Virus record (IMG/VR): IMGVR_UViG_3300050821_008669
Coordinates: 1 to 21,652 of that record
Reading direction: 5' to 3' (one strand)
DNA: 21,652 nucleotides
DNA from: a virus
Each line of letters opens with the position of its first letter. Position 1 is the first letter of the stretch. The position numbers and the translations under genes were made by a program. The notes under the pieces were generated by a model, which ran no database searches, had not been told where the DNA came from, and saw only the letters and a program-made list of their open reading frames with translations. Below, piece by piece: positions 1,238 to 14,893 of this stretch.

Positions 1238-1789
1238 ATGAGCAAGGCAACCCCCACAGAAGACCAGCTACAGCGCTTCGCGTACGACCTATACAAGGCG
1301 GCGCGCGCCGAGGGCGCCTATTTCCATCACAGCCCTAACGGCGGGTTCCGGCATGCCGCAACGGCAATCCGCATGAAGCTTAGCGGCACCCAGGCTGGGT
1401 TCCCGGACATCATAGTCCACTCGCCAACCGTCATTGTGGCGTACATCGAACTAAAAAGCGCAAAAGGAACTCTATCGGTCGAGCAAAGCAAGTTCGCTTG
1501 CTACTGCGACGTGCGCGGCATTCCCCATTACATCCTCCGCACATGCGACCAAATCAGAACCGTCCTCACAGACCTAGGAGTCATCAGGCATGGCAGTAAG
1601 TCTATCAACCCTGCGCAAGGTCAAGGCAACGTTTCCGCCTCGGACGCTGATTTACGGTCCGCCCAAAATGGGAAAGACCACGCTCGCGTCCGAGTTTCCA
1701 GGCGCCGTCTTCATCCAAACCGAGCAGGGCGAAAACCTCGACGAAATAACGTCGTTCGGAAAAATCGACAAGTGGGAGGACGTGATTGA
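1238..1789 (+). CDS. VRR-NUC domain nuclease (Holliday-junction resolvase-like)
   Basis: A 183-residue protein. Residues 6-118 match the VRR-NUC fold, a PD-(D/E)xK nuclease: HHSPNGG (30-36), GFPDIIVH with Asp 57, ELKSAKG with Glu 71 and Lys 73, then LSxEQ with Gln 83. These would form the metal-binding catalytic site. Stand-alone VRR-NUC proteins in phages are thought to cut branched DNA. ATG 1238 fits the domain start, although no Shine-Dalgarno is visible; GTG 1208 is an upstream alternative. The last 67 codons overlap the next gene by 200 bases and have no domain character (Arg-rich, low similarity to anything recognised). This suggests that an ancestral stop near 1590 was lost. First gene of the rightward replication operon. 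Confidence 0.85.
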   Translation: MSKATPTEDQLQRFAYDLYKAARAEGAYFHHSPNGGFRHAATAIRMKLSGTQAGFPDIIVHSPTVIVAYIELKSAKGTLSVEQSKFACYCDVRGIPHYILRTCDQIRTVLTDLGVIRHGSKSINPAQGQGNVSASDADLRSAQNGKDHARVRVSRRRLHPNRAGRKPRRNNVVRKNRQVGGRD

Positions 1790-2366
1790 GGCGGTTCGGG
1801 TTCTGTATCGCGAGACGCACGACCTCAAAACGGTCGTCATCGACTCCATTGACCGGCTCGAAAACCTCATTTGGGACCACGTTTGCGTCGAGCAAAAGTG
1901 GGCGAGCGTTCCCGCAGTCGAGTACGGCAAAGGCTACGCCGCGGCAACCGTATTCTGGGCGCAGCTATTTGTCGGCTTGAACCTTCTTAGAACAGAGAAG
2001 GGCATGAACGTCATTCTCATAGGTCATGAAGAGGTGGACCGTTTCGACGACCCGAGGTCCGCGTCATACAGCCGATTTGATTTCAGATTACACAAAACGG
2101 CACACGCAATGATTCAGAACGATATGGATATCATTCTGTTTCTCAATCAAAAGCCCGGAGTAACCGAGGAAAAAACCGGCTTCGGTGGCAAGCGCAAGGT
2201 CGCCGCGGGCACGGCGCAACGTTGGATGCACCTGGAAGGCCGACCGTCCTACAACGCGGGCAATCGCTACAACATGCCGCCGGAAGCCCCGTACGTTTTA
2301 GGCCAAGGGTATGCGGCCCTTTCCCAATATTTCCCTAATGTAACCCAGGAGAAGGCACTTGTATAA
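1590..2366 (+). CDS. AAA_24/RecA-like phage ATPase, Sak4-like recombinase
   Basis: A 258-residue single-domain P-loop ATPase. Walker A is GPPKMGKTT (23-31), Walker B is TVVIDSIDRL (81-90), and a third strand reads VILIGHEEV. The size and motif order match phage AAA_24 proteins, which include the RAD51-like Sak4 single-strand annealing recombinases. Sak4 proteins work with a phage ssDNA-binding partner, and the gene directly downstream encodes a DUF669 protein with an SSB-like tail. An AGGAG precedes ATG 1590. It overlaps the VRR-NUC tail by 200 bases and the next start by eight. ATPase identity is secure; recombinase activity is inferred from family and context. Confidence 0.85.
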   Translation: MAVSLSTLRKVKATFPPRTLIYGPPKMGKTTLASEFPGAVFIQTEQGENLDEITSFGKIDKWEDVIEAVRVLYRETHDLKTVVIDSIDRLENLIWDHVCVEQKWASVPAVEYGKGYAAATVFWAQLFVGLNLLRTEKGMNVILIGHEEVDRFDDPRSASYSRFDFRLHKTAHAMIQNDMDIILFLNQKPGVTEEKTGFGGKRKVAAGTAQRWMHLEGRPSYNAGNRYNMPPEAPYVLGQGYAALSQYFPNVTQEKALV

Positions 2367-2892
2367 TTTGACTACAAACTTAGGCGAAACCTTCAACGTC
2401 GCTGACGTTCCCCAGCCAGATTATGGCGACTTGCCGGATGGCAAATATCTTGTCGCCATTACCGAGTCGGCCCTTAAGCCGGAACGTAATAACGAAAACA
2501 ACATCCGCGCGTCGCTTCAGTTGACCATCCAAGAGGGCGAGCTTGCCGGACGAGTCATCTTCTCAAATCCCTGTTGGATTAACGAGCGAGAAGACCTGCA
2601 ATTGTACGGTCGGCAGGAGTTGAGTCAGGTCATCAAGGCTACCGGGCTTGTCGGAGTTTCCGATTTGACCGAGCTACACGACAAGCTTTTTCACGTCACG
2701 CTTAAGACCAAGCCCGGCAAGGACGGTACGCCGCGCCAGAGGCCGACCTATCAGAAGATGGTAGCGCCTTCGATTGTTCCCACTCAAAAGCCCTCGGCCT
2801 TCAAGCCGCAGCCTCGGGCAAGTTTGCCCCACCCGCAACAGGCGGCTGCACAGCCTCGCCAAATCGTGCGGCCGACCGACCTGCCTTTCTAA
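2359..2892 (+). CDS. DUF669 family protein, probable ssDNA-binding protein
   Basis: A 177-residue protein with the DUF669 pattern: DYGDLPDGKYLVAITES (about 21-37), LQLTIQEGELAGR, a middle helix with LSQVIKATG, and a later VTLKTKPGKDG strand. The C-terminal third is Pro/Gln-rich and ends DLPF, like the acidic-hydrophobic tip (DDIPF) of bacterial SSB. DUF669 genes commonly accompany phage recombination ATPases. The start is TTG 2359 with AGGAG seven bases upstream (2347-2351), overlapping the ATPase stop by eight bases, which implies translational coupling. Likely role: coat single strands for the Sak4-like ATPase and the replisome. ssDNA binding itself is an inference. Confidence 0.8.
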   Translation: MYNLTTNLGETFNVADVPQPDYGDLPDGKYLVAITESALKPERNNENNIRASLQLTIQEGELAGRVIFSNPCWINEREDLQLYGRQELSQVIKATGLVGVSDLTELHDKLFHVTLKTKPGKDGTPRQRPTYQKMVAPSIVPTQKPSAFKPQPRASLPHPQQAAAQPRQIVRPTDLPF

Positions 2893-2996
2893 TTGCGCCG
2901 TTAGCGCCGGGTGCACCGGGAACCGCTGGCACACGCTAGGGCAAGCGATATCCGAGGTTGAAATCTCGGAAGCCCGCCCTTTCACTTATTCGGAGA
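2893..2996 (+). other. Non-coding gap with a hairpin, inside the replication operon
   Basis: A 104-base gap in an otherwise packed operon. TCCGAG (2951-2956) pairs with CTCGGA (2965-2970) around GTTGAAAT. An outer GGGC/GCCC pair (about 2940 and 2972) could extend it. No T-run follows, so it is not an intrinsic terminator, and no complete tRNA cloverleaf can be drawn. It lies just ahead of the nuclease gene's GGAG. A structured leader or processing site is possible. Confidence 0.4.
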
Positions 2997-3911
2997 ATGC
3001 ATTTGTCAATTCTCGACCTCATAAGCAAAGCCAAAGTCGCAGCTTCCGAAAACTGGGACTCGGTTGGCATATCAATCGGTGCGCTCGGAAGCGATTGCGA
3101 CCGTTCGCTATGGTACGAGCATCGCTGGGCAGCAGAAAAGGAAACATTCACCGCGGATAAACTCCGCATATTCGAGGATGGCCACTATGCTGAGAAGCAA
3201 ATACTCGACGACCTCGAACGAGCAGGCATTCTTGTTGCGCGTGAGGACACAGACACAGGCAAACAGTTCAAGGTTTTCGCCCTCGGAGGACACGTGCGAG
3301 GAAAGCTCGACGGAGAGGCGCTCATTGATAACGTCGTGCACGTGGTCGAGGCCAAATCACACAACGACAGGTCATTCAAAGCCCTAGAGAAGGACGGCGT
3401 TCAGAAATCCAAACCCGCGCATTACTGGCAGTGTCAATATTACTGCCACCTGCGAGGCCGTAAGTTCGCGCTGTATCTCGCGAAGAATAAAAATACATCC
3501 AAGCTATACGCCGAGGTCATTCCCTATGACGCGGTTGCCGTCATGCGGATGGAAGGTCGCCTAGCGAATATCATTAATGCACCGCTAGCGCCAGAGCGCG
3601 CGAGCGAAAATCCAGAGGCTTTTGTTTGTCGGTTCTGTCGCGCAAAGCCGGTTTGCCACAAGGAAGCATTCGGCCGGCGCAACTGCCGCACGTGCACGGC
3701 CTCTACGCCAATCATAACCGATGGCGAAGACGCAGTTTGGAAATGCGAGCTTCACGAATGCGAGCTTCCGATTGACCAGCAAAAGGTCGGATGCCGCGAC
3801 CATCTATACCACAAGGACGTTGTACCGGGCGAGCAGAACGACAGCGGAGACGATTGGATTGCGTATGCGCTAGTTGACGGAACTCAATGGGTTAATGGAG
3901 TCCAGGCATGA
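2997..3911 (+). CDS. PD-(D/E)xK nuclease of the RecB/Cas4 type with cysteine clusters
   Basis: A 304-residue protein if translation begins at ATG 2997. TTG 3003, six residues of leader shorter by two, has a better spaced GGAG (2992-2995) and may be the true start. Motifs, numbered from ATG 2997: Cys 34 in SDCDRSLWY, GHYAEK (62-67), GKLDGE with Asp 105, VEAKSH with Glu 118 and Lys 120, and a WQCQYYCHL motif, together a RecB/Cas4-type nuclease core. FVCRFCRAKPVC adds three cysteines that with Cys 34 could hold a Cas4/AddB-like Fe-S cluster. Further cysteines and histidines in the last 70 residues suggest a zinc site. Likely a 5'-3' exonuclease feeding the Sak4-like recombinase. The cluster type is an inference. 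The stop overlaps the next ATG (ATGA). Confidence 0.8.
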   Translation: MHLSILDLISKAKVAASENWDSVGISIGALGSDCDRSLWYEHRWAAEKETFTADKLRIFEDGHYAEKQILDDLERAGILVAREDTDTGKQFKVFALGGHVRGKLDGEALIDNVVHVVEAKSHNDRSFKALEKDGVQKSKPAHYWQCQYYCHLRGRKFALYLAKNKNTSKLYAEVIPYDAVAVMRMEGRLANIINAPLAPERASENPEAFVCRFCRAKPVCHKEAFGRRNCRTCTASTPIITDGEDAVWKCELHECELPIDQQKVGCRDHLYHKDVVPGEQNDSGDDWIAYALVDGTQWVNGVQA

Positions 3912-4327
3912 AGAAAATCTACATTATCGGCGCTCTCAAGAACAAAACCATTCGCCCGCTCGCGATGGAACTACGCGCAATGGGTTTTGATGTGTTCGAC
4001 GATTGGCACGCGGCAGGAAAATACGCGGACAAAATTTGGCATCAATACGAGCGCGAGCGAGGCCGGCCATATGTCGAGGCGATACGCGGGCATCACGCCC
4101 GGTGCGCCTTCGAATTCGATATGAAAAACCTTAACGAGTCCGATATTGCAATCGTGGTCGCGCCGTTCGGAAAATCAGCCGCCGTAGAAATGGGCTGGTT
4201 CGCCCGAGGCGGTAACCCAGTTTACATCCTGCTCGACAAAGAGCCGACGCGTTACGACCTAATGTTCCAGGTCGCGACCGGCATATTCTTGGACAAGAAC
4301 GAGCTTTTCAAATGCCTAGCTGGTTAA
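3908..4327 (+). CDS. Nucleoside 2-deoxyribosyltransferase-like protein
   Basis: A 139-residue protein beginning MKKIYIIGAL, the first strand of the deoxyribosyltransferase Rossmann-like fold. Near the C-terminal half it has ESDIAIVVAPFGKSAAVEMG (about 77-96). The Asp and Glu of the SD...G.S...E.G pattern match the substrate-binding and catalytic positions of this family, which swaps or removes the base of deoxynucleosides. Phage versions may adjust the nucleotide pool or process modified nucleosides; the substrate cannot be read from sequence. It is coupled to the nuclease gene by an ATGA overlap, and its end overlaps the start of a small membrane protein gene by 16 bases. Confidence 0.7.
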   Translation: MKKIYIIGALKNKTIRPLAMELRAMGFDVFDDWHAAGKYADKIWHQYERERGRPYVEAIRGHHARCAFEFDMKNLNESDIAIVVAPFGKSAAVEMGWFARGGNPVYILLDKEPTRYDLMFQVATGIFLDKNELFKCLAG

Positions 4328-4449
4328 TGCCGGCGGTCGGCATGGCAATCAACATCGCGTCGGCCAGCACATACGTTTTTTATGGCGATTGGCGACGCGC
4401 CGTCTACTGGGCCTGTTGCGCACTCTTAACCGCGGTGATGACGTTTTGA
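4312..4449 (+). CDS. Small membrane protein (45 residues)
   Basis: A short gene reading MPSWLMPAVGMAINIASAST and then YVFYGDWRRAVYW, ACCALL, TAVMTF. It has two hydrophobic stretches around a central polar GDWRR turn, so a hairpin of two membrane segments is likely. I have a general impression of similar small phage proteins with a GDWxRAxYW centre, but no function is known to me. Start ATG 4312 lies inside the end of the preceding gene. Its TGA (4447-4449) overlaps the helicase TTG start (4446-4448), so the three genes look translationally coupled, which supports it being real. Confidence 0.65.
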   Translation: MPSWLMPAVGMAINIASASTYVFYGDWRRAVYWACCALLTAVMTF

Positions 4450-6095
4450 TTGAACTCCGGAATTATCAGACCGAGGCCGTGGACTCCATTGCCAGAGCTT
4501 GGAGAAACGGATGCAATCCGCTCGTCGATATGGCGACGGGCACGGGCAAGAGCTTGGTTATCGCGAGCCTTGCTCAAAGGCTGCTCGCCGCAATGCCTAG
4601 CGCTCGCATCCAAATGTTAGTCCATGTGAAGGAGCTGGTCTCGCAAAACGCCCAGGCCTTGCTTAAGGCATGGCCTAAGGCGCCGCTTGGGATTTACTGC
4701 GCTGGCTTGAACCGGCGCGACACGAATAGTCAAATCGTTTTCAGTTCGATTGATTCCGTCTACAGGCGGGCCGACCTATTCGGTCGCCGTGACCTAATCA
4801 TCATTGACGAATGCCATCGCGTTCCCACGTCCGGCAATGGCAAATATTTGACGTTCATTGAGAAGGCGCGGCTGTTCTGCGAAGACCTCCGCGTGGTCGG
4901 TTTCACTGCCACGCCGTACCGGCTCGACTGCGGCCGCCTCGACGAGGGAGCCGACAGTCTCTTTACGGAAACCGTCTATTCCTACGATATCGCGGCAGGC
5001 ATTGCGGATGGGTACTTGAGTCCTCTGGTAAGCCCCTTCGCGTCGAGGTGCGCCAAACACAAAATCGATACCTCAAACGTCGGGCGACTCGGCGGTACGG
5101 GTGACTTTAAGGTCGGCGAGCTTGAGGCTGCGGCGAACAAGGATATAATCGTAGACGGCGCTTGCCGGGAGATTGTCTCGATAGGTGCCGACCGTAAATC
5201 CTGGCTCGTGTTTTGCGTTGGAGTCGAGCACGCGTGCAACGTTCTGGCGCACTTGAGACGCCTGGGCGTAAACGCGGAAATGGTTATCGGGACCACGCCA
5301 AGCGGTGAGCGCGACCGCATTTTCAAGGCGTACAAAGCCGGGAAAATCCGTTGCCTCGTCGGATGCCAAGTGTTTACGACGGGCTTCGATGCGCCGAGCG
5401 TCGACCTAATCGTTTTGCTCCGCCCGACCATGTCAACAAGCCTCTACGTGCAAATGCTTGGCCGCGGCACCCGCAAGGCGGATAACAAGGAGAACTGTTT
5501 AGTCCTCGACTTCGCTAACAACATCATGACGCACGGTCCGGTCGACTCGGTTCGCGTCCGAACCAAGAAAAAAGGCGGAGAAATAGACGCCGAGGCGCCA
5601 ACCAAAATATGCCCGTCGTGCGACTACTACATGCCCGCGGCAATTCACCAATGCACGAACTGCGGTCACGAGTGGCCAATCGACGAGGAGCCTAAGCATA
5701 GCGGTTCGGCCGATTTTGAAGCGCCGGTTCTCACGTCAGAAATTGTTAAAAAGTGGCTCCCGGTCAAGGTGAGAATGCACGACCGAAACACCGGAAAGAA
5801 CGGCAAGCCCGACTCCGTTTGCGTTGAGTACATGTGCGGGTTCGCCTCGTACCGCGAGTACATTTGCCCGGAACATACCGGCTTCGCGGCCGTCAAAGCC
5901 GGCCAATGGTGGCGGGCAATGGGCGGAAACGCGCCAGCGCCTAAGACGGTTTCGGACATGCTGCGCCGAATGGATGAAAGAGAACTAATCGATACCGAGC
6001 AAATCATGGTCATCCCGGACGGGAAATACATGCGGGTTAGCGGCTATTGGCTTCAAGACGGAACCGAGATTGACCACAAACTGAGGGCGAGATAA
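4446..6095 (+). CDS. DEAD/DEAH-type superfamily 2 helicase
   Basis: 549 residues from TTG 4446. This start gives the usual MIELRNYQTEAV opening of phage SF2 helicases and overlaps the preceding TGA. Motif Q-like RNYQ (5-8), motif I ATGTGKS (30-36), motif II DECH (about 121-124), motif III TATP (about 152-155) and motif VI QMLGRGTRKA (about 336) are all present. A four-cysteine zinc ribbon (CPSC...CTNCG) follows at about 388-405, with a C-terminal extension of unknown fold. ATP-dependent unwinding of DNA during phage replication or recombination is expected; the polarity is not evident. A longer reading from 4389 is possible but lacks homology. The methyltransferase ATG follows directly after its TAA. 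Confidence 0.9.
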   Translation: MIELRNYQTEAVDSIARAWRNGCNPLVDMATGTGKSLVIASLAQRLLAAMPSARIQMLVHVKELVSQNAQALLKAWPKAPLGIYCAGLNRRDTNSQIVFSSIDSVYRRADLFGRRDLIIIDECHRVPTSGNGKYLTFIEKARLFCEDLRVVGFTATPYRLDCGRLDEGADSLFTETVYSYDIAAGIADGYLSPLVSPFASRCAKHKIDTSNVGRLGGTGDFKVGELEAAANKDIIVDGACREIVSIGADRKSWLVFCVGVEHACNVLAHLRRLGVNAEMVIGTTPSGERDRIFKAYKAGKIRCLVGCQVFTTGFDAPSVDLIVLLRPTMSTSLYVQMLGRGTRKADNKENCLVLDFANNIMTHGPVDSVRVRTKKKGGEIDAEAPTKICPSCDYYMPAAIHQCTNCGHEWPIDEEPKHSGSADFEAPVLTSEIVKKWLPVKVRMHDRNTGKNGKPDSVCVEYMCGFASYREYICPEHTGFAAVKAGQWWRAMGGNAPAPKTVSDMLRRMDERELIDTEQIMVIPDGKYMRVSGYWLQDGTEIDHKLRAR

Positions 6096-6554
6096 ATGGA
6101 ATTGTTAGCAAACGGACGCGTTACCCTTCATTGCGGCGACTCGCGCGAAAAGCTTTCGCTAATAGCCGACAACTCGATTGATAGTGTGGTGACGGACCCT
6201 CCCTATGCGCTTGTCTCAATATCAAAGCGTTTCGGAAAGAAGGGCGCCGCGCCGGCAAAAGCGGGAACCGTTTACGCAAGAGCGTCTAGCGGATTCATGC
6301 AAGTTAATTGGGATACCGGCGAGGTTGCCTTTAACCCGGAATTCTGGGGCGGCGTTCTTCGCGTCATGAAGCCCGGGGCGCATATATGCGCCTTTGGTGG
6401 CGACAGAACGTTTCATCGCTTGGCGTGCGCTATCGAAGATGGAGGATTCGAAATTCGCCACTCCATGTCCTGGCTTTTTGGGTCAGGTTTTCCCAAAAGC
6501 AGAAATATTTCCAAAGACTTAGCTAAAACAGAATGGTGTCAATGCGATGACTGA
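6096..6554 (+). CDS. DNA methyltransferase, N-terminal half (split gene)
   Basis: 152 residues carrying the first half of a permuted (beta-type) amino-methyltransferase. It has VTLHCGDSREKL, then motif IV DPPY (34-37), the EFWGGVLRVMKPGAHICAFG strand-helix pair, and HSMSWLFGSGFPKSRNISKD. Motif I, which binds S-adenosylmethionine, is absent here and lies in the downstream piece (7122-8030). The reading frame ends at WCQCDD and TGA 6554. The next gene, an HNH endonuclease, begins at 6547 in another frame. The two methyltransferase pieces share phase (7122 minus 6096 is 1026, a multiple of three). DPPY implies N6-adenine or N4-cytosine methylation. Whether the halves assemble into an active enzyme is unknown. 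Confidence 0.85.
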   Translation: MELLANGRVTLHCGDSREKLSLIADNSIDSVVTDPPYALVSISKRFGKKGAAPAKAGTVYARASSGFMQVNWDTGEVAFNPEFWGGVLRVMKPGAHICAFGGDRTFHRLACAIEDGGFEIRHSMSWLFGSGFPKSRNISKDLAKTEWCQCDD

Positions 6555-7125
6555 AAGAACCTGCGAATATTGCGGCAATACGTTTCGCGTACAGCCGTCA
6601 CGAATTAAGCATGGGCGCGGACGACACTGCTCAAAAACGTGTCAATACGCATCGGCTAAGGCCAAGCCTCGACGCGACGTCAAATTTACCTGCCTATGCT
6701 GCGGCGTCGCATTTTCTCTTTCAGTCAGCAAGGCCAGCAACAAAGGAGCCGGCAAGTACTGCTCACGACAATGCCGGGACCAGCATTGGGTAGGCGAAAA
6801 CACTCCTAACTGGCAGCATGGGGGCGGCGTCTACAAAAGAGGGCCGCGCTGGTACTCTACACGACGGCGAATTCTTGACCGCGATAAGACGTGTCGTCAG
6901 TGCGGCGCCGAGGGCGGGCTTCATGTGCATCACATTATCCCGTTTAGGATGTTTGATAATGCGGATGACGCCAATTCCGACAACAATCTGACTTCACTTT
7001 GCCCGCCATGCCATCGTCTGGCGGACTCCCAATTCAAATGGGTTGCGACTGCGGAAGGTAGCATCCTTCGTTTTAACTCTGGCGGCTACGCGTGGTCGCT
7101 CGTGCGCGAGAAAGGACTGATATGA
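6547..7125 (+). CDS. HNH endonuclease with tandem zinc fingers, inserted in the methyltransferase
   Basis: 192 residues. Two tandem treble-clef-like modules come first: CEYCG...HCSKTC (Cys 6, 9, 28, 32) and CLCCG...YCSRQC (Cys 49, 52, 72, 76). Then comes the GENTPNWQHGG motif common in phage HNH homing enzymes, and the HNH core: CRQCG (116-120), HVHHIIPF (126-133), DNNLTSLCPPCH (145-156). It should nick or cut DNA at a site set by the zinc fingers, perhaps an uninterrupted methyltransferase allele. It starts eight bases before the upstream half's stop and ends with an ATGA overlap with the downstream half. Its frame differs from the methyltransferase, so it is not an intein, and it leaves no room for an intron core. 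Confidence 0.85.
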   Translation: MTERTCEYCGNTFRVQPSRIKHGRGRHCSKTCQYASAKAKPRRDVKFTCLCCGVAFSLSVSKASNKGAGKYCSRQCRDQHWVGENTPNWQHGGGVYKRGPRWYSTRRRILDRDKTCRQCGAEGGLHVHHIIPFRMFDNADDANSDNNLTSLCPPCHRLADSQFKWVATAEGSILRFNSGGYAWSLVREKGLI

Positions 7126-8030
7126 CCATTTGTTCGTGTTGCGGTAAGCCAAGGCGACCATTAAACCTGAGCGGACTAGGCACGGCTTTGAAGCCGGCAA
7201 TGGATTTAATATGCCTCGCGCGCAAGCCGCTCATAGGCACGGTTGCCGAGAATGTTTTGGAACATGGAACCGGCGCGCTCAATATAGATGGGTGTCGAGT
7301 TGGAACGGACGAAAACCTTAACGGTGGCCGCTACAGCGACGACAAGAAGGGCGACGACGGCAACACGTATGGCAGCGGCATCAATCTTCGCAGCAAGGAT
7401 GATTATAAACAGCCGCTAGGCCGCTGGCCCGCAAATGTCATCCATGACGGAAGCGACGAGGTGGTCGAGGCTTTTCCGGAGACGAGTACGCACGGACGAA
7501 GCGGCGCAGAATACGCAAACGGAACATTTAGCAGTGGAGCAGTTCAAAAAGAGATAGACAAAGACTCCGGCTCTGCCGCGCGCTTTTTTAAGTCCTGCAA
7601 TGGACGCGACGGCGAAGCTTCGGCCGACAGGCGCTATGTCGACGAAACAGGATTTGCGATGCTTCCAGGCGCTCGACGCGATGGCGTACCGCCCGCGCGG
7701 TTCTTTTACACGGCCAAAGCCGGCGCAGACGACAGGCTCGGGAGCAAGCATCCAACTGTTAAGCCTCTCGACCTCATGCAGTACCTTTGCCGGCTCGTAA
7801 CGCCAAAGGGCGGGACCGTCCTCGACCCATTTGCCGGAACCGGAACCACGGGCGAGGCAGCATTCCGAGAGGGCTTCAACGCGGTTCTGATAGAGCGCGA
7901 GACCGAATACCAAGCCGATATACGGCGCCGCATGAGCCTTGTTCTCGGAGGGCCGGAAGAGAGACGCAACGCGAGCCTTAAGGCCAAGGGGCTTGTTGAG
8001 GATGCTGGGCCGCTATTCGGAGGGTTATGA
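7122..8030 (+). CDS. DNA methyltransferase, C-terminal half (split gene)
   Basis: 302 residues from ATG 7122, with AAAGGA six bases upstream and an ATGA overlap with the HNH gene. The start MTICSCCGKPRRP could complete a zinc knuckle with WCQC at the end of the N-terminal piece. LSGLGTALKPAMDLICLARK and HGTGALNIDGCRV are segments found in the middle of intact phage methyltransferases. HPTVKPLDLM and motif I DPFAGTGTTGEAA (about 233-245) form the cofactor-binding end. Residues about 60-200 are the variable region expected to include target recognition. Both halves keep their motifs and lack internal stops, which argues against simple decay. An intact enzyme would total about 450 residues. Confidence 0.85.
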   Translation: MTICSCCGKPRRPLNLSGLGTALKPAMDLICLARKPLIGTVAENVLEHGTGALNIDGCRVGTDENLNGGRYSDDKKGDDGNTYGSGINLRSKDDYKQPLGRWPANVIHDGSDEVVEAFPETSTHGRSGAEYANGTFSSGAVQKEIDKDSGSAARFFKSCNGRDGEASADRRYVDETGFAMLPGARRDGVPPARFFYTAKAGADDRLGSKHPTVKPLDLMQYLCRLVTPKGGTVLDPFAGTGTTGEAAFREGFNAVLIERETEYQADIRRRMSLVLGGPEERRNASLKAKGLVEDAGPLFGGL

Positions 8031-8031
8031 C

Positions 8032-8352
8032 ATGTTGAACAGACTCAGAGTCGCAAACGAGTTCCGTCAAGCGGAGTGGGACCCGGATGACCGAATTTCG
8101 CTTACATACCGCGGCAACGAATTGGCCGGCGAGGTGGGCGAGGCTTGCAATGTGATCAAGAAGCTAGCCCGTGAATATATGGGAATCCCGGGAAGCCGCG
8201 CCAGTCTATCCAACCTCGCTGAAGAGCTGGCCGACGTGGTCATATGCGCCGATTTGATTGCCATGCACGTCGGGATAGACCTCGGCGACGCGGTGAAGGA
8301 AAAGTTCAATACGACCTCGGCGAAAGTTGGCCTGAACACAAGGATTGATTGA
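8032..8352 (+). CDS. MazG-like nucleotide pyrophosphohydrolase
   Basis: 106 residues from ATG 8032, preceded by GGAGG at eight bases. The all-alpha MazG/dUTPase-like metal site is clear: ELAGEVGEA (Glu 30, 34, 37) and EELADV (Glu 64, 65, Asp 68), the ExxE...ExxD arrangement that binds magnesium. Family members hydrolyse (d)NTPs to monophosphates; phage versions clean the nucleotide pool or lower host alarmone levels. The substrate cannot be told. It lies in the replication operon between the methyltransferase and a zinc-ribbon protein. Confidence 0.8.
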   Translation: MLNRLRVANEFRQAEWDPDDRISLTYRGNELAGEVGEACNVIKKLAREYMGIPGSRASLSNLAEELADVVICADLIAMHVGIDLGDAVKEKFNTTSAKVGLNTRID

Positions 8353-8354
8353 TA

Positions 8355-8645
8355 ATGACATACATCCTAAGCGACAAAATTCGCAAGGCGTTCAGGCGAC
8401 ACCGCTGCGACCAATGCGGCGGCACCATCGAAGCGGGACAATTCTACAGAATGCAGGTCAACACTTATGACGGGTTCGGAGTCTACAAGGCGCACGAAGA
8501 CTGCGACCTAGCTGCGCAGCGCTATACGGAGCTGAATGGGGTGCTACATGAAGAGCACGTGCCATTGTACAATATAACACGCAAAGACAAGCCTTGGATT
8601 GAAACCGAGTTCCCATCCGTAGCAAAGAGGTTTTTCGCACGATGA
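8355..8645 (+). CDS. Phage zinc-ribbon protein of unknown function
   Basis: 96 residues from ATG 8355; a TTG at 8349 is less likely. A metal site is formed by HRCDQCGGTI near the N-terminus and YKAHEDCDL about 35 residues later, giving two Cys pairs or Cys/His pairs around a small beta-hairpin (FYRMQVNTYDGFGVYK). This is a common layout for small phage zinc proteins. The C-terminal half (WIETEFPSVAKRFF) is featureless. No function is recognised. Its stop overlaps the next start by ATGA, linking it to the primase gene. Confidence 0.65.
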   Translation: MTYILSDKIRKAFRRHRCDQCGGTIEAGQFYRMQVNTYDGFGVYKAHEDCDLAAQRYTELNGVLHEEHVPLYNITRKDKPWIETEFPSVAKRFFAR

Positions 8646-10867
8646 CAGCACCCTACGCAAACGTTGGACCTAAGCTAGTTGAGCGCGGATATGCGGCCAT
8701 TCCTATCATTCCGGGAACCAAGCGCCCGGGGCAGCTTGTCGGCGGCGAGTGGGTCGGGATTAATAAATGGTCAGAAATTCAATCCCCGACCGAGGAGGAG
8801 GTCGACCGGTGGTCCGACTCCGACGCTGGCGTGGGTGTTGTCTGCGGGCCCGCCTCGGGCGGGTTGATTGGAGTCGATATCGACACGGACGACTCTGACA
8901 TAATCGACGCAATCCTTTCCGCCATTCCGCCCTCGGACGTAAAAAAAGTCGGTGCCAAGGGAATGACGCTTTTCTACCGGGAGAGCGGTATCGAGTCGAA
9001 AAGTTGGAACGTCGAGGGCGCGCGGGCATGCGACCTGATAGGCCCTGGAAGGCAGACGCTGCTCCCCCCGACCTTGCACCCAGGAACGGGTCAGCCGTAC
9101 CGTTGGATAGGGTCCGAGGCGCTTGAATGCTCTGCCGTCGCTGACCTGCCGGAACTCACCATGGAGCACGTCGAGGCCATTGGCGAGGCTTTAAAGCCTT
9201 TCGGCTGGAAAGCAGAGAAGCCGCAACAAGCCGGGGTTCCCGGACAAGCCTTCGACGACCCGGAAACGCCATTCCGGTCCTTGAACAACGACGCGCTAGC
9301 GAACCTGCCAAAGTGGGTTCCTGCGCTTGGCCTATTCGGGTGTAGACCTGCCCGAGGAGGGTATGAGGCCGTGCCGTCTTGGCGAGCCTCGAACACTGGC
9401 CAGCCTCTTGAGAAGCGCAAGCTGAATCTCAAGCTGCACCCCCGCGGCATCGTAGACGAGGGCGACGGTCCGAAAGGATATACGCCCATTGACTTGGTCA
9501 TACGGGCTAACGGGTGTGATTTTGACGAGGCGCGCAAGTTCCTAACGGACCGTCTATGGGAGCACGACAAGTACATCAAGATAAGCGCCGTCACTCAGAT
9601 AGTCCCGCATGAGCCGAAAGAGGTCGGATTTGAAGCGCAGCTTGAGGCGCTTACCCACTGCAATGGAGTGGTGAACCAGATAATCAATTGGGTCACCGAG
9701 ACATCTCGCATTCCTAACCGTATCCTCGCGCTCGGAACCGCGCTCGCCACGGTCGGGACACTTATCGGCCGGCGCGCGCAAGGGCCGACCAAGAGCGCAA
9801 CACACCTATACGTCATCGGGCTGGCGCCGACCGGGAGCGGTAAAGACCGGCCGCTGAAGGCAACAGACGCCCTATTCGAGGCTGCTGGCGCCCTCCACCA
9901 TGTCGGGACATCCGGCGAATGGGTGTCGATGCAAAGCCTGATGAACGACGTGCAGGCGCATCCGTTGGCTCTATTCCGCCAAGACGAATGGGGGAGCTTT
10001 CTTCGCCGCGTCAATGGGCGGAAGGCGAGCGGGTTCGAGCAGTCGATCGGAAAGGGCTTGCGGGAACTCTGGTCAACGTCTTTTGATAGGTACTTGCCGC
10101 CGAGTTCCGCGGCGAAAAAGGCAACGCCCGTTAACAGCCCTGCGGTTTCCGTCCTTGCCATGTCTACGCCCAAGGAATTCTATACCTCAATCCGAGGCGC
10201 AGACATTGAAAACGGGTTCCTAAATCGCTTGCTTATCCTCCGTTCTGACCGCTTTGTGCGCGCCGTAACACCGGGCGAAATAGAAATTCCGTCCGGCCTC
10301 GCCGCGGCGTTGCAAGAGCTTTACCTATGGGGTGGCACGGAAATCGAAACAGCAGGCCTCGCAAGCCCGGACTATGAGACGCCGCCATTCTATATCGAAT
10401 GGGAGTCGCCAGAGGCAAAAAAGGCATTTGACGATTTTGCCGAGTTCACGCGCGAGCGAATGGCGGTGGATACGGACATAGCGCCGTTCTTGTCGAGGAC
10501 GGCCGAAAACGCGGTGCGGATGGCGACCATCATGGCGGCCGGACGCTGGGGGCCTGGGTGCGCGGTCGACACGCACGACATGCTATGGGCACTCGACGTG
10601 TCGAAAAATTGCACCGAGCGCGCGATTGCGGATGCAGCGGCATCAATGAACAAAGAGCTTTCGCATAGCGAGGTCTATGGCCGCATCCTTGAAATGATTG
10701 CGGCGAAGGGTGGCAAGCTGTCCCGGCAAGACCTGATTGCCGACCTCGGGCCCTCGGTGCGGTCAAAACGGGAAATCGACCAAACGCTAGAGCTTCTATA
10801 TGAGGGCGGGCGCATCAAGTGGTATGACGTTTCAGGTGACAAAAAAGATATCTGGTATACGGCGTAA
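8642..10867 (+). CDS. Prim-Pol domain primase fused to a DUF3987 helicase-like ATPase
   Basis: 741 residues. The first 180 match the bifunctional primase/polymerase domain: RGYAAIPIIPGTKRPG, then GVVCGPASGGLIGVDIDTDD with the catalytic DxD at about 78-80, and DLIGPGRQTLLPPTLHPGTG. A linker follows; from about 345 there is a DUF3987-type ATPase with Walker A LAPTGSGKD (about 394-402), FRQDEWG and a C-terminal winged-helix-like tail (SRQDLIADLGPSVRSKREI). This is the phage's likely replication initiator, making primers and loading or acting as a helicase at the origin. It ends the rightward operon at a convergent terminator. Domain identities are confident; exact enzymology is inferred. Confidence 0.88.
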   Translation: MTAPYANVGPKLVERGYAAIPIIPGTKRPGQLVGGEWVGINKWSEIQSPTEEEVDRWSDSDAGVGVVCGPASGGLIGVDIDTDDSDIIDAILSAIPPSDVKKVGAKGMTLFYRESGIESKSWNVEGARACDLIGPGRQTLLPPTLHPGTGQPYRWIGSEALECSAVADLPELTMEHVEAIGEALKPFGWKAEKPQQAGVPGQAFDDPETPFRSLNNDALANLPKWVPALGLFGCRPARGGYEAVPSWRASNTGQPLEKRKLNLKLHPRGIVDEGDGPKGYTPIDLVIRANGCDFDEARKFLTDRLWEHDKYIKISAVTQIVPHEPKEVGFEAQLEALTHCNGVVNQIINWVTETSRIPNRILALGTALATVGTLIGRRAQGPTKSATHLYVIGLAPTGSGKDRPLKATDALFEAAGALHHVGTSGEWVSMQSLMNDVQAHPLALFRQDEWGSFLRRVNGRKASGFEQSIGKGLRELWSTSFDRYLPPSSAAKKATPVNSPAVSVLAMSTPKEFYTSIRGADIENGFLNRLLILRSDRFVRAVTPGEIEIPSGLAAALQELYLWGGTEIETAGLASPDYETPPFYIEWESPEAKKAFDDFAEFTRERMAVDTDIAPFLSRTAENAVRMATIMAAGRWGPGCAVDTHDMLWALDVSKNCTERAIADAAASMNKELSHSEVYGRILEMIAAKGGKLSRQDLIADLGPSVRSKREIDQTLELLYEGGRIKWYDVSGDKKDIWYTA

Positions 10868-10900
10868 AAAAAAGGCCCCTTCAAGGGGCCTTTACTCTTT
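10864..10900. terminator. Convergent bidirectional terminator
   Basis: AAAGGCCCCT (10871-10880) pairs perfectly with AGGGGCCTTT (10884-10893) around TCA. An A-run on the left becomes a T-run for leftward transcripts, and TTTACTCTTT follows for rightward ones. It lies between the primase stop (10867) and the stop of the leftward operon's last gene (10892), and the 3' arm overlaps that stop codon. Confidence 0.88.
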
Positions 10901-11053
10901 CGCCGCTTTCAAATGATGACCTTTAGGCCATTCAGAGCGGAACAGTTCAGCCTCTTCTTTGGTTTCGTACCGCGCGGCAAGCCGCTTATCAAGCGTGTAG
11001 TATCCTGGCAAGCCAGCCCTGGCGTGGAACATGCCGGTAGTTAGGATGTACAT
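10892..11053 (-). CDS. Small hypothetical protein (53 residues)
   Basis: A short reading frame beginning MYILTTGMFHARAGLPGYYT and ending HHLKAAKE. It has GAGG about seven bases before ATG 11053 and overlaps the upstream stop by 13 bases. Its stop lies in the 3' arm of the convergent terminator, so it is the last gene of the leftward operon. It has an N-terminal beta-like stretch and a charged C-terminal helix with TKEEAE. No family is recognised. Confidence 0.6.
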   Translation of the reverse strand: MYILTTGMFHARAGLPGYYTLDKRLAARYETKEEAELFRSEWPKGHHLKAAKE

Positions 11054-11202
11054 TCAGCCACCTCAACATTGTGGTCGTGCCAGCACCATTGGACCTGACC
11101 CGAGTTATGCATGGTAAGCGCAAGCGCCTTCGCTTCTGCCTCAGACGAAGCAGTGACAGACACCTCGATATCGGCAGACCCGTAGACTAGATATTTCTTC
11201 AT
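11041..11202 (-). CDS. Small hypothetical protein (53 residues)
   Basis: MKKYLVYGSADIEVSVTASS opens a small beta-alpha protein with a SEAEAKALA helix and a second strand (NVEVAECTS). ATG 11202 has a strong AGGAGAAGC just upstream, which chooses it over the in-frame ATG at 11232. Similar small phage proteins with a vSVtVeAeSeeEA pattern exist, but their function is not known to me. Confidence 0.65.
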   Translation of the reverse strand: MKKYLVYGSADIEVSVTASSEAEAKALALTMHNSGQVQWCWHDHNVEVAECTS

Positions 11203-11210
11203 TGCTTCTC

Positions 11211-11693
11211 CTATATGCCTTCCGGCATCCATCCGATTGAAAATGCGCTTAGAGCCTTCTTTTCCGTCTTAGGTATCACCATCCGAACATTGCGCCGGCA
11301 CGGGTCGCACTTGCGCACGCGACTTGACCGAAGCTTGGTGAATTGGTCGCCGCATTGCATGCACTCGCGCGTCACCTCCACATCGGGCTTTGGCTTCCAC
11401 TTAGTCTTTTTAGCGCATTTCCATTTGCATTTAATGGAATGGAATTTCTGACTGCGACTCTTTGGCGCAAACAACGCACCGCAACAGGCGCAAGGCTTCT
11501 CGGGCAATTGGTTTCTAAGCGCGTGTGCGATGGAATGATGGTGCACCCCAAAAATGCGGCCGACTGCCCGCAGCGACAGGCCGCGCGCGCGCAATTCCAA
11601 CATAACATCTCGTCGCGCCTCGGTCGGAGTCGCGCTCCTCGCCGCAGAGGCTATCAGTTCCGCCGCGGTTGGCAGGGCTCGGAAAGTAAGCAC
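11211..11693 (-). CDS. Helix-turn-helix protein with two C-terminal zinc modules
   Basis: 160 residues from GTG 11693, with GGAG seven bases upstream, two bases after the preceding stop. Residues about 28-60 form a helix-turn-helix (VMLELRARGLSLRAVGRIFG then HHHSIAHALR). Two cysteine modules follow: CACCGALF...HSIKCKWKC and CMQCGDQF...RKCDPC. These resemble the zinc modules of the HNH enzyme at 6547 and the protein at 13888. Likely a DNA-binding regulator made of separate reading heads; the target is unknown. Confidence 0.7.
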   Translation of the reverse strand: MLTFRALPTAAELIASAARSATPTEARRDVMLELRARGLSLRAVGRIFGVHHHSIAHALRNQLPEKPCACCGALFAPKSRSQKFHSIKCKWKCAKKTKWKPKPDVEVTRECMQCGDQFTKLRSSRVRKCDPCRRNVRMVIPKTEKKALSAFSIGWMPEGI

Positions 11694-11695
11694 GG

Positions 11696-11869
11696 TCAGA
11701 CTCCATCGTCTAATTGCAGGTGTTCGGTCGGCACGTTCTCATATTGCGGGATACCGTGTTCGCGGTAGTTGTCCCATTTCACGGACGACTGGCAAGGGCC
11801 TGGGGTATGCACGGTCCCGAGGCCGAGCGCTGTCCATCGGGTGTCGAAAACTCGGTCACCTTTGTTCAT
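11696..11869 (-). CDS. Small SH3/KOW-like protein (57 residues)
   Basis: MNKGDRVFDTRWTALGLGTV then VKWDNYREHG: a short beta-barrel pattern seen in phage proteins, with a GDRVFD strand, a GxGTV turn and a VKWDNY strand. ATG 11869 overlaps the upstream TGA as ATGA, favouring this start over longer in-frame ones. Binding of a nucleic acid or protein partner is possible; nothing more can be said. Confidence 0.6.
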   Translation of the reverse strand: MNKGDRVFDTRWTALGLGTVHTPGPCQSSVKWDNYREHGIPQYENVPTEHLQLDDGV

Positions 11870-12141
11870 AGGGGCACCATCGTTTCTCCGCACAATGGAC
11901 ATCCGCTCGTCAAGTCTCTGATATGCCTTATGATGCCGCAATCTTCGCAGCGGTACCATCGGTTGCGATACAAGTTGACGATTTCAGCGGTGTTCCGCAC
12001 CTCCTTCATTGTCGCGTCATCCGTGTAACGGCCGGCGTTACGGCGCGCTAAATCCCAAACCATGTCCATCAAGCAGGCCTTTGACAGCTTTTCAATTTCT
12101 CCCTGAAATTGTTCGGGAACAAAGACGGGGGGCCTTTTCAT
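11866..12141 (-). CDS. Zinc-ribbon hypothetical protein (91 residues)
   Basis: MKRPPVFVPEQFQGEIEKLS starts a helical N-terminal half, followed by WYRCEDCGII and SGCPLCGETM, a four-cysteine zinc ribbon at the C-terminus. ATG 12141 shares its A with the upstream TGA (TGATG), a reinitiation junction; GTG 12144 is an alternative start. No specific family or function is recognised. Confidence 0.65.
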   Translation of the reverse strand: MKRPPVFVPEQFQGEIEKLSKACLMDMVWDLARRNAGRYTDDATMKEVRNTAEIVNLYRNRWYRCEDCGIIRHIRDLTSGCPLCGETMVPL

Positions 12142-12413
12142 CACATCACCATCAGGTTATTGGCGACTATGCCCGAGTACAGGGCGACCATGCCGACGAC
12201 GTACCGCAGTCGCGTCTTGCGCGAAGCCAAGACGGGGACGGCCACGGCGAGCACGGCGAGCTTGATAAGCCACCAATTGGCGCCGAGGTGTTCCATGGCG
12301 AAAGCCATAATCGGGTTACCTTCGACCGCGTTGCCGGACGAAAGGAAAGCATTTGTGGTCGCCACGTCGAGGCCTTGAAGCGCCACAAGGGCGAGGATTA
12401 GGGCGGTTTTCAT
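12141..12413 (-). CDS. Small membrane protein, DUF5658-like
   Basis: 90 residues with three or four hydrophobic segments. The LQGLDVATTNAFLSSGNAVE then GNPIM pattern is the hallmark of DUF5658-type membrane proteins (D-x-x-T...E-x-NP). Segments lie at about 1-14, 47-63 and 71-88. ATG 12413 has GGAGG five bases upstream and overlaps the preceding TGA. It should sit in the host inner membrane. Function is unknown; an effect on infection or superinfection is possible but not shown. Confidence 0.7.
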   Translation of the reverse strand: MKTALILALVALQGLDVATTNAFLSSGNAVEGNPIMAFAMEHLGANWWLIKLAVLAVAVPVLASRKTRLRYVVGMVALYSGIVANNLMVM

Positions 12414-12652
12414 CAAAACCTCCATCCGTGTGCGTGCAAAAACTTGGCGTTGCGAGTGATAGCCTCGGGCAGGGTGCGCAGGGCCTCGTCGGCCACGGTG
12501 CGGGTAGAGGCTATATAGTTGTTTGCCGAATTGGCGTGAAAGCGAACCCCTGCAACATCCCAATTGCCGGTCTCAGTTAGCATCGCGACGATGCCGGCAA
12601 GCTGCCTTTGGGCTTCTCTGGCTATTGTCACCTTGTTAGGTCCGCGGCTCAT
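12413..12652 (-). CDS. Hypothetical protein (79 residues)
   Basis: MSRGPNKVTIAREAQRQLAG begins a mostly helical small protein that ends AKFLHAHGWRF. The start at 12652 lies five bases after the preceding stop, with a weak GGAGTGACC-like site; the long upstream in-frame extension is a shadow of the neighbour gene. No motif or family is recognised. Confidence 0.6.
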   Translation of the reverse strand: MSRGPNKVTIAREAQRQLAGIVAMLTETGNWDVAGVRFHANSANNYIASTRTVADEALRTLPEAITRNAKFLHAHGWRF

Positions 12653-12657
12653 GGTGG

Positions 12658-12891
12658 TCACTCCTTCTCGACTAGCGTGGCGCGAATGCCGCCCATTGCA
12701 AAGCAATTGGTGTAAGCAACCACGTTGCCCTCGATTCCGGTGACGCGGGCAATGGCGCGCGACCATTCGGTGCGGCGCTTGCCAACGGTCAGGCCGTGCT
12801 CGGTCGCCCAACGCTCCATTTCGTCCCACGACTTGGCCTCGATTTGGCTAGGGACTACGTTCAGGCGGTCGTCGTAGATAGTGAATGACAT
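12658..12891 (-). CDS. Hypothetical protein (77 residues)
   Basis: MSFTIYDDRLNVVPSQIEAK starts at ATG 12891 with AAGGAG nine bases upstream, a strong site that rejects the longer ORF. SWDEMERWATEHG looks like an amphipathic helix, followed by beta-prone sequence (GNVVAYTNCFAMGG). No family is recognised. A 46-base gap separates it from the exonuclease gene; that gap holds an inverted CGGCCG pair but no T-run. Confidence 0.6.
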   Translation of the reverse strand: MSFTIYDDRLNVVPSQIEAKSWDEMERWATEHGLTVGKRRTEWSRAIARVTGIEGNVVAYTNCFAMGGIRATLVEKE

Positions 12892-12937
12892 GGGGAACTC
12901 CTTTTTTGTTGACGGCCGCACCTTACGGCCGCGCTCC

Positions 12938-13573
12938 TTAATAGTCAAGCCAAATTGCTTTAACACCTAGCGTCTTAATAAACGCCTTGTGCGCCTCTTT
13001 TTCAGTACTTGTTAGCCGCGGGGGCAGAGGCGCCGGGCGAGGCCGTACAGGGGCTTGTTCGATAGGCGCCTCAGTGACGCGGGATAGCCCAAAAGACGCC
13101 TGGGTGGGGCGCCTAAGGCGAATATAGACGTGCGCCAACAGGATTGCGTCTTTTAGCGCGCCGTGCACCTTTCGGTCGGCCTCTATTTTGTACTTTTTGG
13201 CCAATTGGTCGAGGCTTGTCGGCGCCAGACTCATGGTGTCGAACCATCCATTTATTAGCGGCCGGCCAACCTCTGCCTCGATGAAAGACCGGTCGAACCG
13301 GGCATTGTGGGCGACACATGGCGAGTCGCCTATAAAGGTCAAGAAATCGGGCTCAACGTCCTTCCAGGCGGGTTCCCTGAAAAGCCGGGCTTGGGATAGC
13401 CCGTGAACCGCGACGGCCTCACGAGGCACGTGGCGTTGCGGATTGATATGCCGGTGAAATGTGGCACCGAGGCGCTCCCGGTCCAACACCTCGACACAGC
13501 CGACCTCGACCATGCGGTGGCCTTCCGCAGGATCAAAGCCGGTTGTTTCGGTGTCGAGAACGATTTCCCTCAT
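12938..13573 (-). CDS. DnaQ-like 3'-5' exonuclease (DEDDh)
   Basis: 211 residues from ATG 13573. The exonuclease motifs are clear: Exo I LDTETTGFD (Asp 7, Glu 9), Exo II CVAHNARFDRSF, and Exo III KVHGALKDA with the His and Asp of the DEDDh class. Residues about 1-155 match the epsilon subunit of DNA polymerase III. The remaining proline-rich tail has no domain. It probably trims 3' ends in replication, recombination or host DNA turnover. The start overlaps the upstream 27-residue gene's stop as ATGA. A phage exonuclease outside the replication operon suggests independent timing. Confidence 0.88.
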   Translation of the reverse strand: MREIVLDTETTGFDPAEGHRMVEVGCVEVLDRERLGATFHRHINPQRHVPREAVAVHGLSQARLFREPAWKDVEPDFLTFIGDSPCVAHNARFDRSFIEAEVGRPLINGWFDTMSLAPTSLDQLAKKYKIEADRKVHGALKDAILLAHVYIRLRRPTQASFGLSRVTEAPIEQAPVRPRPAPLPPRLTSTEKEAHKAFIKTLGVKAIWLDY

Positions 13574-13653
13574 GTGGCGATTAAATAGGCCAAGCCTATG
13601 AGGCTCGACACCAGGAGGGCGGCGACAATCCAAAGAACGATATCTGTCAACAT
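13570..13653 (-). CDS. 27-residue single-pass membrane peptide
   Basis: MLTDIVLWIVAALLVSSLIG then LAYLIAT: essentially one hydrophobic helix with an N-terminal acidic residue. ATG 13653 has AAGGGA eight bases upstream, and the TGA overlaps the exonuclease ATG (ATGA). The coupling and ribosome site support translation despite the length. It would insert in the inner membrane; role unknown. Confidence 0.6.
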   Translation of the reverse strand: MLTDIVLWIVAALLVSSLIGLAYLIAT

Positions 13654-13654
13654 G

Positions 13655-13891
13655 TTAGAATCCCTTTCTTCTTGCTCGGAACTTGGACTTAGGTGGCTCG
13701 ACGACCTTCTCAAAGTAGGTTTTTTCGAACGCCTTTTCCACCTCAGGAAGGCGTTCACGCATAAGGAACTCTGGGATTCCGTTAGCGTCGCCGGACCCGG
13801 TGCAATCCATACAGACTATTGTTCCCATTTCTGTTTCCCATGGGGCCTTGTGCGGCACGAAGCCCGTGCCCTGGCATGTCTCGCAAATCAT
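13655..13891 (-). CDS. DnaJ-type CxxCxGxG zinc protein (78 residues)
   Basis: Two CxxCxGxG half-sites, CETCQGTGF and CMDCTGSGD, flank about 20 residues near the N-terminus, as in the DnaJ cysteine-rich domain. The C-terminal half is charged and ends KSKFRARRKGF. No J domain is present, so it is not a DnaJ chaperone. ATG 13891 overlaps the preceding TGA as ATGA. Small phage proteins with this motif are common but unassigned. Confidence 0.7.
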   Translation of the reverse strand: MICETCQGTGFVPHKAPWETEMGTIVCMDCTGSGDANGIPEFLMRERLPEVEKAFEKTYFEKVVEPPKSKFRARRKGF

Positions 13892-14160
13892 GGCCGCACC
13901 TTGCGGTCGAGGGCCGACCGTCCCGGCAAAGGGTCCCCAAAGATGCTTTGAAAATGCGAGTATGCGTGGCGCTTCTCGGCGACAACCTCGGGGGGCGGGA
14001 TGGGGTCAAGGTCAATTTCACTCGTTAGGCTCAGTCGATAGGCTTCCTGACGCGCATTGTGGACCTTGTTTCGGCATATCCGAGAACAGAACAGGCGCTT
14101 AGTGCCGCCCTTAGCCTTGAATTCAAACGCGGTTTGACAACATTCGCAGACAATTTGCAT
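13888..14160 (-). CDS. Zinc-finger protein, first gene of the leftward operon
   Basis: 90 residues with one treble-clef-like module at the N-terminus: CECCQTAFEF...RLFCSRICRNKVHNAR. The module resembles the repeats of the HNH enzyme at 6547. The rest of the protein is proline-containing and carries no known domain. ATG 14160 has GAGGAGAACG upstream, a strong ribosome site. It may bind DNA or RNA; its position right after divergent region B makes a regulatory role possible but unproven. Confidence 0.7.
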   Translation of the reverse strand: MQIVCECCQTAFEFKAKGGTKRLFCSRICRNKVHNARQEAYRLSLTSEIDLDPIPPPEVVAEKRHAYSHFQSIFGDPLPGRSALDRKVRP

Positions 14161-14184
14161 TTCGTTCTCCTCTGTTGAGGCTTC

Positions 14185-14270
14185 CTTAAATGGTCGTTAG
14201 CATTACTTTGTCAAGCGTCAGAAAACTTTTTAATGCGCTTGTTGACGCGATAGGGGGCGACCGTGCACAA
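14185..14270. promoter_or_regulatory. Divergent control region B
   Basis: A leftward TTGACA (14214-14209) has TTTAAG (14190-14185) 18 bp downstream, a fair sigma-70-type promoter for the 14160 operon. A rightward TTGACG (14242-14247) faces the 14294 operon; its -10 is weak (CACAAA region). The 19 bases at 14229-14247 repeat those of region A. The TTGAC boxes again face away from each other around an A/T-rich core. Confidence 0.65.
14229..14247 (+). repeat. 19-bp control element, copy B
   Basis: Identical to 1187-1205 (TTTAATGCGCTTGTTGACG) and in the same position relative to a rightward operon. The distance from the inverted GTCAAG box is 19 bases here and 13 in copy A, so the 19-mer itself, not the whole region, is what is conserved. 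Confidence 0.85.
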
Positions 14271-14293
14271 AAGGATACAACAAAGGAAAACTT

Positions 14294-14728: not shown

Positions 14729-14892
14729 TTATTCTGACCACGCTTGCCGGCAAGGACTTATTCGTCAATCCCCGGCGCATCTATGCCATCCAGGACAAGA
14801 CCTCCCATTCGGTGGTTTTCGCGGGCAGCGAGTCGTTTGTCGTCGCCGAAACTCCGGGAATGATTTTCGACCTTTACGACGGGATTTCCTGA
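14716..14892 (+). CDS. Small beta-rich protein (58 residues), FlbD-like pattern
   Basis: MQGMIILTTLAGKDLFVNPR then RIYAIQD: ATG 14716 has GGAG seven bases upstream (14705-14708) and overlaps the preceding gene by 13 bases. The strand-turn pattern (liLTxLaGk-vNPxxI) weakly resembles the small flagellar protein FlbD, but such small phage proteins are common and no flagellar role is implied. Function unknown. Confidence 0.55.
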   Translation: MQGMIILTTLAGKDLFVNPRRIYAIQDKTSHSVVFAGSESFVVAETPGMIFDLYDGIS

Positions 14893-14893
14893 G

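Follow-up and report, generated by a model that had tools for sequence, protein, structure and literature searches.

A probable homing-type HNH gene at the zinc-knuckle site of a phage DNA methyltransferase may give a coupled gene-in-pieces enzyme

AquI is a C5-cytosine methyltransferase (MTase) whose two separately made chains have to come together. For SssI, another C5-cytosine MTase, an engineered split into complementing fragments has been reported (PMC3404938). Among phages, enzymes encoded by genes-in-pieces include that of Aeromonas phage Aeh1, in which mobE is inserted in nrdA and the two-piece enzyme still works, and further cases involve mobA in T4 gene 60 and seg43(25) at gene 43, with the 43A and 43B pieces forming a working enzyme (PMC2988022). 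The overlap of start and stop at T4 mobE suggests translational coupling, and homing with co-conversion has been described in T4-type phages (PMC2988022). In the DNA methylases of mycobacteriophages, the ShiLan domain is an HNH insertion concealed in another reading frame (PMC11855218, PMC9957025).

The locus studied here lies in the window, the whole 21,652-nt stretch of DNA that was analysed (virus record IMGVR_UViG_3300050821_008669, positions 1 to 21,652), which belongs to a virus of bacteria. Annotation of the neighbouring genes placed an MTase cassette within a phage replication/recombination operon, in the order Sak4-like annealing protein, SSB-like protein, Cas4-like exonuclease, nucleoside deoxyribosyltransferase, helicase, MTase cassette, MazG-like protein and primase, and an integrase gene is located close to the window's right end. 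The cassette consists of three genes on the plus strand. MTase-N (6096..6554, 152 aa) extends from motif IV, DPPY (6195..6206, residues 34-37, columns that are invariant in the N-part alignment), through a GFPKS block to its end at WCQCDD-stop, where CQC (6537..6545) forms the first cysteine pair of a split zinc knuckle, in the same place as CxC in zinc-knuckle relatives. Its last 8 bases, ATGACTGA (6547..6554), hold the HNH start codon followed by the MTase-N stop, and so overlap the HNH endonuclease gene (6547..7125, 192 aa). The HNH protein has two zinc ribbons, seen in the sequence and the HNH family alignment (C6, C9, C28 and C32, 6562..6642; C49, C52, C72 and C76, 6691..6774), and a C2C2-HNH domain, whose catalytic/zinc motif (C116, C119, H128, H129, N147, C152, C155 and H156, 6892..7014) occupies invariant columns. 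A 4-base overlap, ATGA (7122..7125), preceded by AAAGGA, combines the HNH stop with the start of MTase-C. Although mechanical ORF calling began this last gene earlier, at a GTG at 7092, it comprises 302 aa counted from the ATG at 7122 (7122..8030), and contains the second cysteine pair, CSCC (7131..7142, from sequence and the zinc-knuckle alignment), a GLGTALKPA block, a variable target-recognition-like region, and the SAM-binding motif I, DPFAGTGTTG (7824..7853, from sequence and the C-terminal alignment). The three ORFs, the 8- and 4-base overlaps, the phase shared by MTase-N and MTase-C, and the DPPY and DPFAGTGTTG motifs had all been claimed in an earlier sequence-only reading, and all are present as described. 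Between the two halves, the MTase frame has 12 stops of all three kinds, and a point frameshift or an alternative genetic code was therefore rejected.

Pfam N6_N4_Mtase (PF01555) was matched by both outer genes, with profile positions 1-90 in MTase-N (E 1.3e-5; 25.7 bits, just below the 26.7 cut-off) and positions 159-218 in MTase-C (E 1e-15). As judged from sequence, MTase-N and MTase-C together make up a single phage DNA MTase of the beta class (CcrM-like), with the split point between the two cysteine pairs of the zinc knuckle. We modelled a read-through chain in which the stops were replaced by Gly, a modelling device only, so that a monomer stood in for the two-chain complex. The MTase core had pLDDT values of 90-98 in both halves and the linker was below about 40; Foldseek matched the model across both halves to CcrM (6pbd, 1.8e-8), and likewise to M.BceJIV (TM 0.70 on target). 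Since the alignment of intact homologues biases such a model toward the joined fold, it speaks to the position of the break, predicted in a loop outside the MTase core, and is no demonstration of two-chain assembly.

Each half fell, by tblastn, within single continuous MTase genes in hundreds of phages, so that the uninterrupted homologues that the sequence-only reading had proposed to seek were found in named phages, such as Caulobacter phage DMCA, whose continuous MTase matched the two halves at 61% and 46%. The closest intact MTase belongs to a related phage, L008, and has neither an HNH gene nor a zinc knuckle. DNA identity between the window and L008 was 79% over 3055-4449, 81% over 4446-6322, and 83% over 7693-8026. 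Within the MTase, codons 1-60 were 91-98% identical, codons 76-147 of the N half were 44-62% identical, and the start of MTase-C was also within this low stretch, followed by about 81% at 7209-7315, variable values in the recognition region, and 76-91% past 7695; identity of the MTase-N protein to L008 was complete in the first ~48 residues only, so that part of the sequence of the two halves may derive from different MTases. The tract unlike this empty relative (6322..7209) measures about 0.9 kb, surrounds the HNH gene, and takes in family-conserved codons. Because these conserved codons diverge there as well, the tract reads as an import, and it looks like a segment brought in with the HNH gene inside, as homing with co-conversion would leave. 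The same tract would result from plain recombination between MTases.

To place the insertion among related genes, N-part, C1 and C2 profiles were run over all fetched loci, giving 279 distinct N-C1 pairs (about 280 loci). Well over 200 of the 279 MTases have no internal HNH gene. Apart from the window, about 20 loci have one at the zinc-knuckle site (Site A), about 18 of them outside the mycobacteriophages. In the mycobacteriophages Molly, StellaBean, SG4 and Lamina13, the HNH gene sits between CxC and CxxC, wholly inside an open MTase frame. ShiLan-like HNH genes were found at Site A in two other contigs (L295 and L320), and HNH_3-like genes in L019, L070/L015, L074, L088/L193, L131, L358, L360, L361, L363-L366 and L368; the HNH_3-like hidden genes outside the mycobacteriophages are apparently unreported. 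All plus-strand Site A HNH genes have the same frame relation to the MTase. The one recognised zinc-knuckle MTase of the sample that lacks an HNH gene is that of phage Oogway, the same MTase without the insert (CDCLDPRDGQP-RVDPGRS...VCSWCG), and a zinc knuckle can therefore exist without an HNH gene. Continuous relatives such as this one (CDC...CSWCG) back the proposal that WCQC and CSCC in the window are a single knuckle cut in two. Antisense HNH genes were also observed at Site A inside an open MTase frame, at L168:1549-2013 (-) and L397:281-703 (-), along with an antisense HNH remnant at L426:2364-2477 (-), likewise in an open frame.

Other insertions are at Site B, the SAARFF/YTAKA position (L028, L253, L254, L031 and L326), within the EPIxLARKP block (L031 and L326), and at another position in L369, where a 1467-base insertion in a 361-kb contig contains a 212-residue hidden HNH stretch with 44% G+C. 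No Pfam HNH model matched L019, L131 or L254 at E 0.01, and L253 gave a weak NinG match; the HNH calls for these four loci are based on shared profile, motifs and homology. In the window itself, MTase-C contains a 35-residue in-frame extra block (7590-7694) between two ARFF copies, at the same position as the hidden HNH genes of L028, L031, L253 and L254. The block looks like a recombination scar or a tandem duplication, and the idea of a decayed second HNH gene was rejected, as no HNH remnant was recognised in it.

The MTase frame of the other Site A loci has 0 stops where the window has 12. To evaluate the expectation without constraint, synonymous codons were shuffled within the HNH ORF and stops in the MTase frame were counted. 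Expected stops were 12.6 for L074, 9.5 for L131, 6.7 for L015, 5.8 for both L088 and L032, 6.2 for both L295 and L320, 13.9 for L369, 7.2 for L366, 6.5 for L360 and 6.3 for L358, and all 11 of these hidden copies had 0 stops, with shuffle fractions <=0.001. The test was uninformative for L253, L326 and L397, and borderline for L028, L031, L254 and L365. By this test, the MTase frame across the hidden HNH gene is held open by selection in most of the loci tested, and the usual arrangement at the zinc-knuckle site is dual coding, not splitting. The window, the only Site A case without an open MTase frame, had 12 stops against 10.7 expected. A comparable result (7 stops observed, 7.3 expected) was obtained for the independent contig L030, where a different HNH gene (1693-2295) divides the same MTase at another position, after GRWPANLIL and before HGSDEV, and the junctions overlap by 14 and 10 bases. 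Because observed stops match the shuffle expectation, both the window and L030 have given up the second frame. The in-phase halves of these two loci would fit descent from in-frame hidden inserts, an outcome that chance alone would give with a probability of 1/9. We tentatively raise the possibility that a once-hidden HNH gene lost its dual coding here, leaving a three-cistron operon and a two-chain beta-class MTase with a shared four-cysteine zinc site.

The HNH gene of the window interrupts an MTase that is continuous in relatives, and forms with it a three-gene cassette in which the overlaps suit coupling and the halves keep the catalytic motifs, in agreement with the main proposal of the sequence-only reading. 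We consider it probable that a homing-type HNH insertion gave a coupled genes-in-pieces MTase, and we infer two-chain activity and homing. In this scheme, a free-standing homing-type HNH gene would occupy the zinc-knuckle region and leave two MTase cistrons, and the operon mRNA would be read in the order MTase-N, HNH, MTase-C. Ribosomes ending MTase-N at its TGA could re-initiate at the HNH ATG, which is five bases back from that stop, a distance that suits re-initiation, and ribosomes ending the HNH gene could restart at the MTase-C ATGA, or bind the AAAGGA ahead of it. A hybridisation estimate gave weak Shine-Dalgarno pairing at the HNH start (-2.8 kcal/mol) and did not distinguish either of the two internal starts from background ATGs; since this analysis did not set the starts apart, it is the overlaps that point to re-initiation. 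MTase-N (motifs IV-VIII) and MTase-C (recognition region, motifs X and I) would then fold together into a two-chain MTase, possibly joined by a zinc site to which each chain contributes two cysteines. MTase copies lacking the HNH gene would be cut by the HNH protein, and repair would copy flanking MTase sequence too, so that the locus spreads.

A homing-type insertion might instead have inactivated the MTase, leaving the pieces as remnants at a locus that persists only on account of the HNH gene or because the phage can do without the MTase. Residue losses offer some grounds for this: at the KPAxEP block, the window has D in place of an E that is essentially invariant among the surveyed homologues, and in the family alignment 3/30 near-invariant residues are changed in the N half (none of them in DPPY), with 2/26 in C1, this E among them, and 0/28 in C2, the last 111 aa of MTase-C. 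Such losses are within the family range, however, as 26% of N halves lose as many. That the enzyme can be done without is suggested by close relatives of ShiLan-type phages that lack this MTase entirely (PMC11855218), and the split form is rare among the ~280 loci, that of the window being known from one viral population. Against inactivation, both halves are full-length ORFs without degeneration, and their overlaps suit coupled translation. In addition, dN/dS between the window and L008 was 0.019 for the 111 codons of C2, and in the 75 codons of this region that two outgroups allowed to be polarised, the window lineage had 9-12 synonymous changes and none that altered an amino acid. These values point to purifying selection on the halves, with the reservation that dN/dS spans time before the split and is not datable to after it, and the halves may have been separate for too short a time for selection on them to tell much. 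Overall, we regard inactivation as unlikely, and the coupled two-piece MTase as the better reading.

The middle ORF matched Pfam HNH (PF01844, E 4.1e-8) and the PHROG 1271 HNH endonuclease family (3.8e-21), retained every invariant position of its family, and gave an AlphaFold2 model with a mean pLDDT of 83.9. A fold search with the HNH protein returned weak matches only (best E 0.018), among them Hpy99I and VcaM4I. Its closest relatives, L276 (59%) and L277 (55%, with a frameshift), are located beside the MTase and not inside it, directly upstream of intact MTases of the window's MTase family, and in both the HNH stop and MTase start overlap as ATGA, as at the HNH/MTase-C junction of the window. 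The HNH start of L276 is apparently made of MTase N-terminal codons (MSETFLDGRVTLHC-). Several further members of this HNH family lie <= about 3 kb from an MTase of the same family, and the HNH-MTase association is therefore broader than the insertion in the window. In L278, L284 and L309, relatives of the window HNH are next to such MTases on the opposite strand. Zinc ribbons like those of the HNH protein, without an HNH domain by eye, were also noticed in two small ORFs of the window, 11211-11693 (-) and 13888-14160 (-), and at L005:4510-5873 an HNH gene with four zinc ribbons separates two parts of a tape-measure-like phage gene.

The adjacency of HNH and MTase genes throughout the closest HNH group (3/3 members), together with the existence of HNH-type restriction enzymes and the weak fold matches to two of them, Hpy99I and VcaM4I, lends something to the restriction-modification-like pairing that the sequence-only reading had offered as a bolder alternative, in which the HNH protein would act as a restriction enzyme and the split MTase would protect its site. 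We think this improbable. Stable HNH-MTase pairing was not seen in the survey of the 279 loci, which covered HNH genes inside the MTase: most loci have none there, and where present the internal HNH genes are of unrelated types (HNH_3, PF01844 and NinG-like) and vary in position and strand (two antisense), as intruders would. Together with the conversion-like tract at the flanks, these observations fit homing better.

An artefact of assembly or sequencing, or a chimeric join between two MTase genes, might be suspected, since metagenomic contigs are the sole source and the ends of the gene do not share the origin of its middle part. A second contig of 44.4 kb (IMGVR_UViG_3300020581_000017) was compared with the window over 1547-12122 and over 12000-15324 and was 100% identical throughout; the two contigs, probably samples of one population, end at different places. 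An assembly error at 6554 is unlikely because the second contig agrees at 100% yet ends elsewhere, and a sequencing frameshift at that position, a concern of the sequence-only reading, is countered by this identity as well as by the 12 stops between the halves. L030, an independent contig, also has a comparable split, at a different site. We give an artefact very little weight. Least probable of all is a self-splicing intron or intein that would leave the mature MTase as one chain: group I introns often carry HNH genes, and L037 and L238 have intein-like in-frame insertions elsewhere in the same MTase family, but the insert here is the HNH ORF only, with ends that overlap both halves, an intein is ruled out by the 12 stops in the MTase frame, no splicing domain was recognised in any frame of the insert, and a group I or II intron has no space outside the HNH ORF and no Rfam structure, a search at E<=5 having given two chance matches only.

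These results suggest that at one hot spot there are two ways for a homing gene to live in a host gene without splicing, since most loci keep the MTase frame open across the HNH gene, and the window and, independently, L030 split the gene instead. Whether this MTase methylates DNA both in its split and in its dual-coded form is thus open to direct comparison. The more general result is the survey, which shows that hidden HNH genes occur in phages other than mycobacteriophages. The survey also carries a warning for annotation, as about 150-200 apparent MTase residues in L015, L019, L131 and similar loci are a shadow translation of the HNH gene.

In comparison with the two-chain C5-cytosine MTases AquI and SssI, the window encodes a predicted beta-class amino-MTase divided into a motif IV-VIII half and a recognition/motif I half; its halves have PF01555 N6_N4_Mtase and DPPY, not the motifs of C5-cytosine MTases. 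The beta-class adenine MTases CcrM, M.BceJIV and RsrI resemble the window in the modelled fold, which spans both halves with motif IV before motif I, and differ from it in being single chains with no insert. We found no report in the open-access literature of this MTase family being split by an HNH gene.

The ShiLan phages share with the window the MTase family, the zinc-knuckle region (CxC to CxxC), the frame relation, and the lack of an intron or intein. In contrast to the window, with 12 stops and two cistrons, the ShiLan MTase is one continuous frame with 0 stops. The HNH proteins share a homologous HNH domain, with 39.6% identity over residues 71-156 only, and by eye their N-terminal parts differ, that of the window having two zinc ribbons and that of ShiLan a single ribbon and a stretch resembling a helix-turn-helix. 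The native spacer of Oogway (about 32 residues) is missing in the window, and the insertion bases of ShiLan and the window are not equatable. Because the open host frame, the defining oddity of ShiLan, is absent, the locus is not a ShiLan element. Like the known genes-in-pieces, it has a free-standing endonuclease gene that leaves a conserved phage enzyme encoded by two cistrons; the host gene is continuous in relatives, the insert is neither intron nor intein, and both pieces keep conserved residues (E to D excepted) under purifying selection that is not datable to after the split. It is unlike the reviewed examples in that the host gene is a DNA MTase and both junctions overlap. By sequence criteria, then, the window contains a genes-in-pieces MTase that is located at the ShiLan hot spot and is distinct from the ShiLan element.
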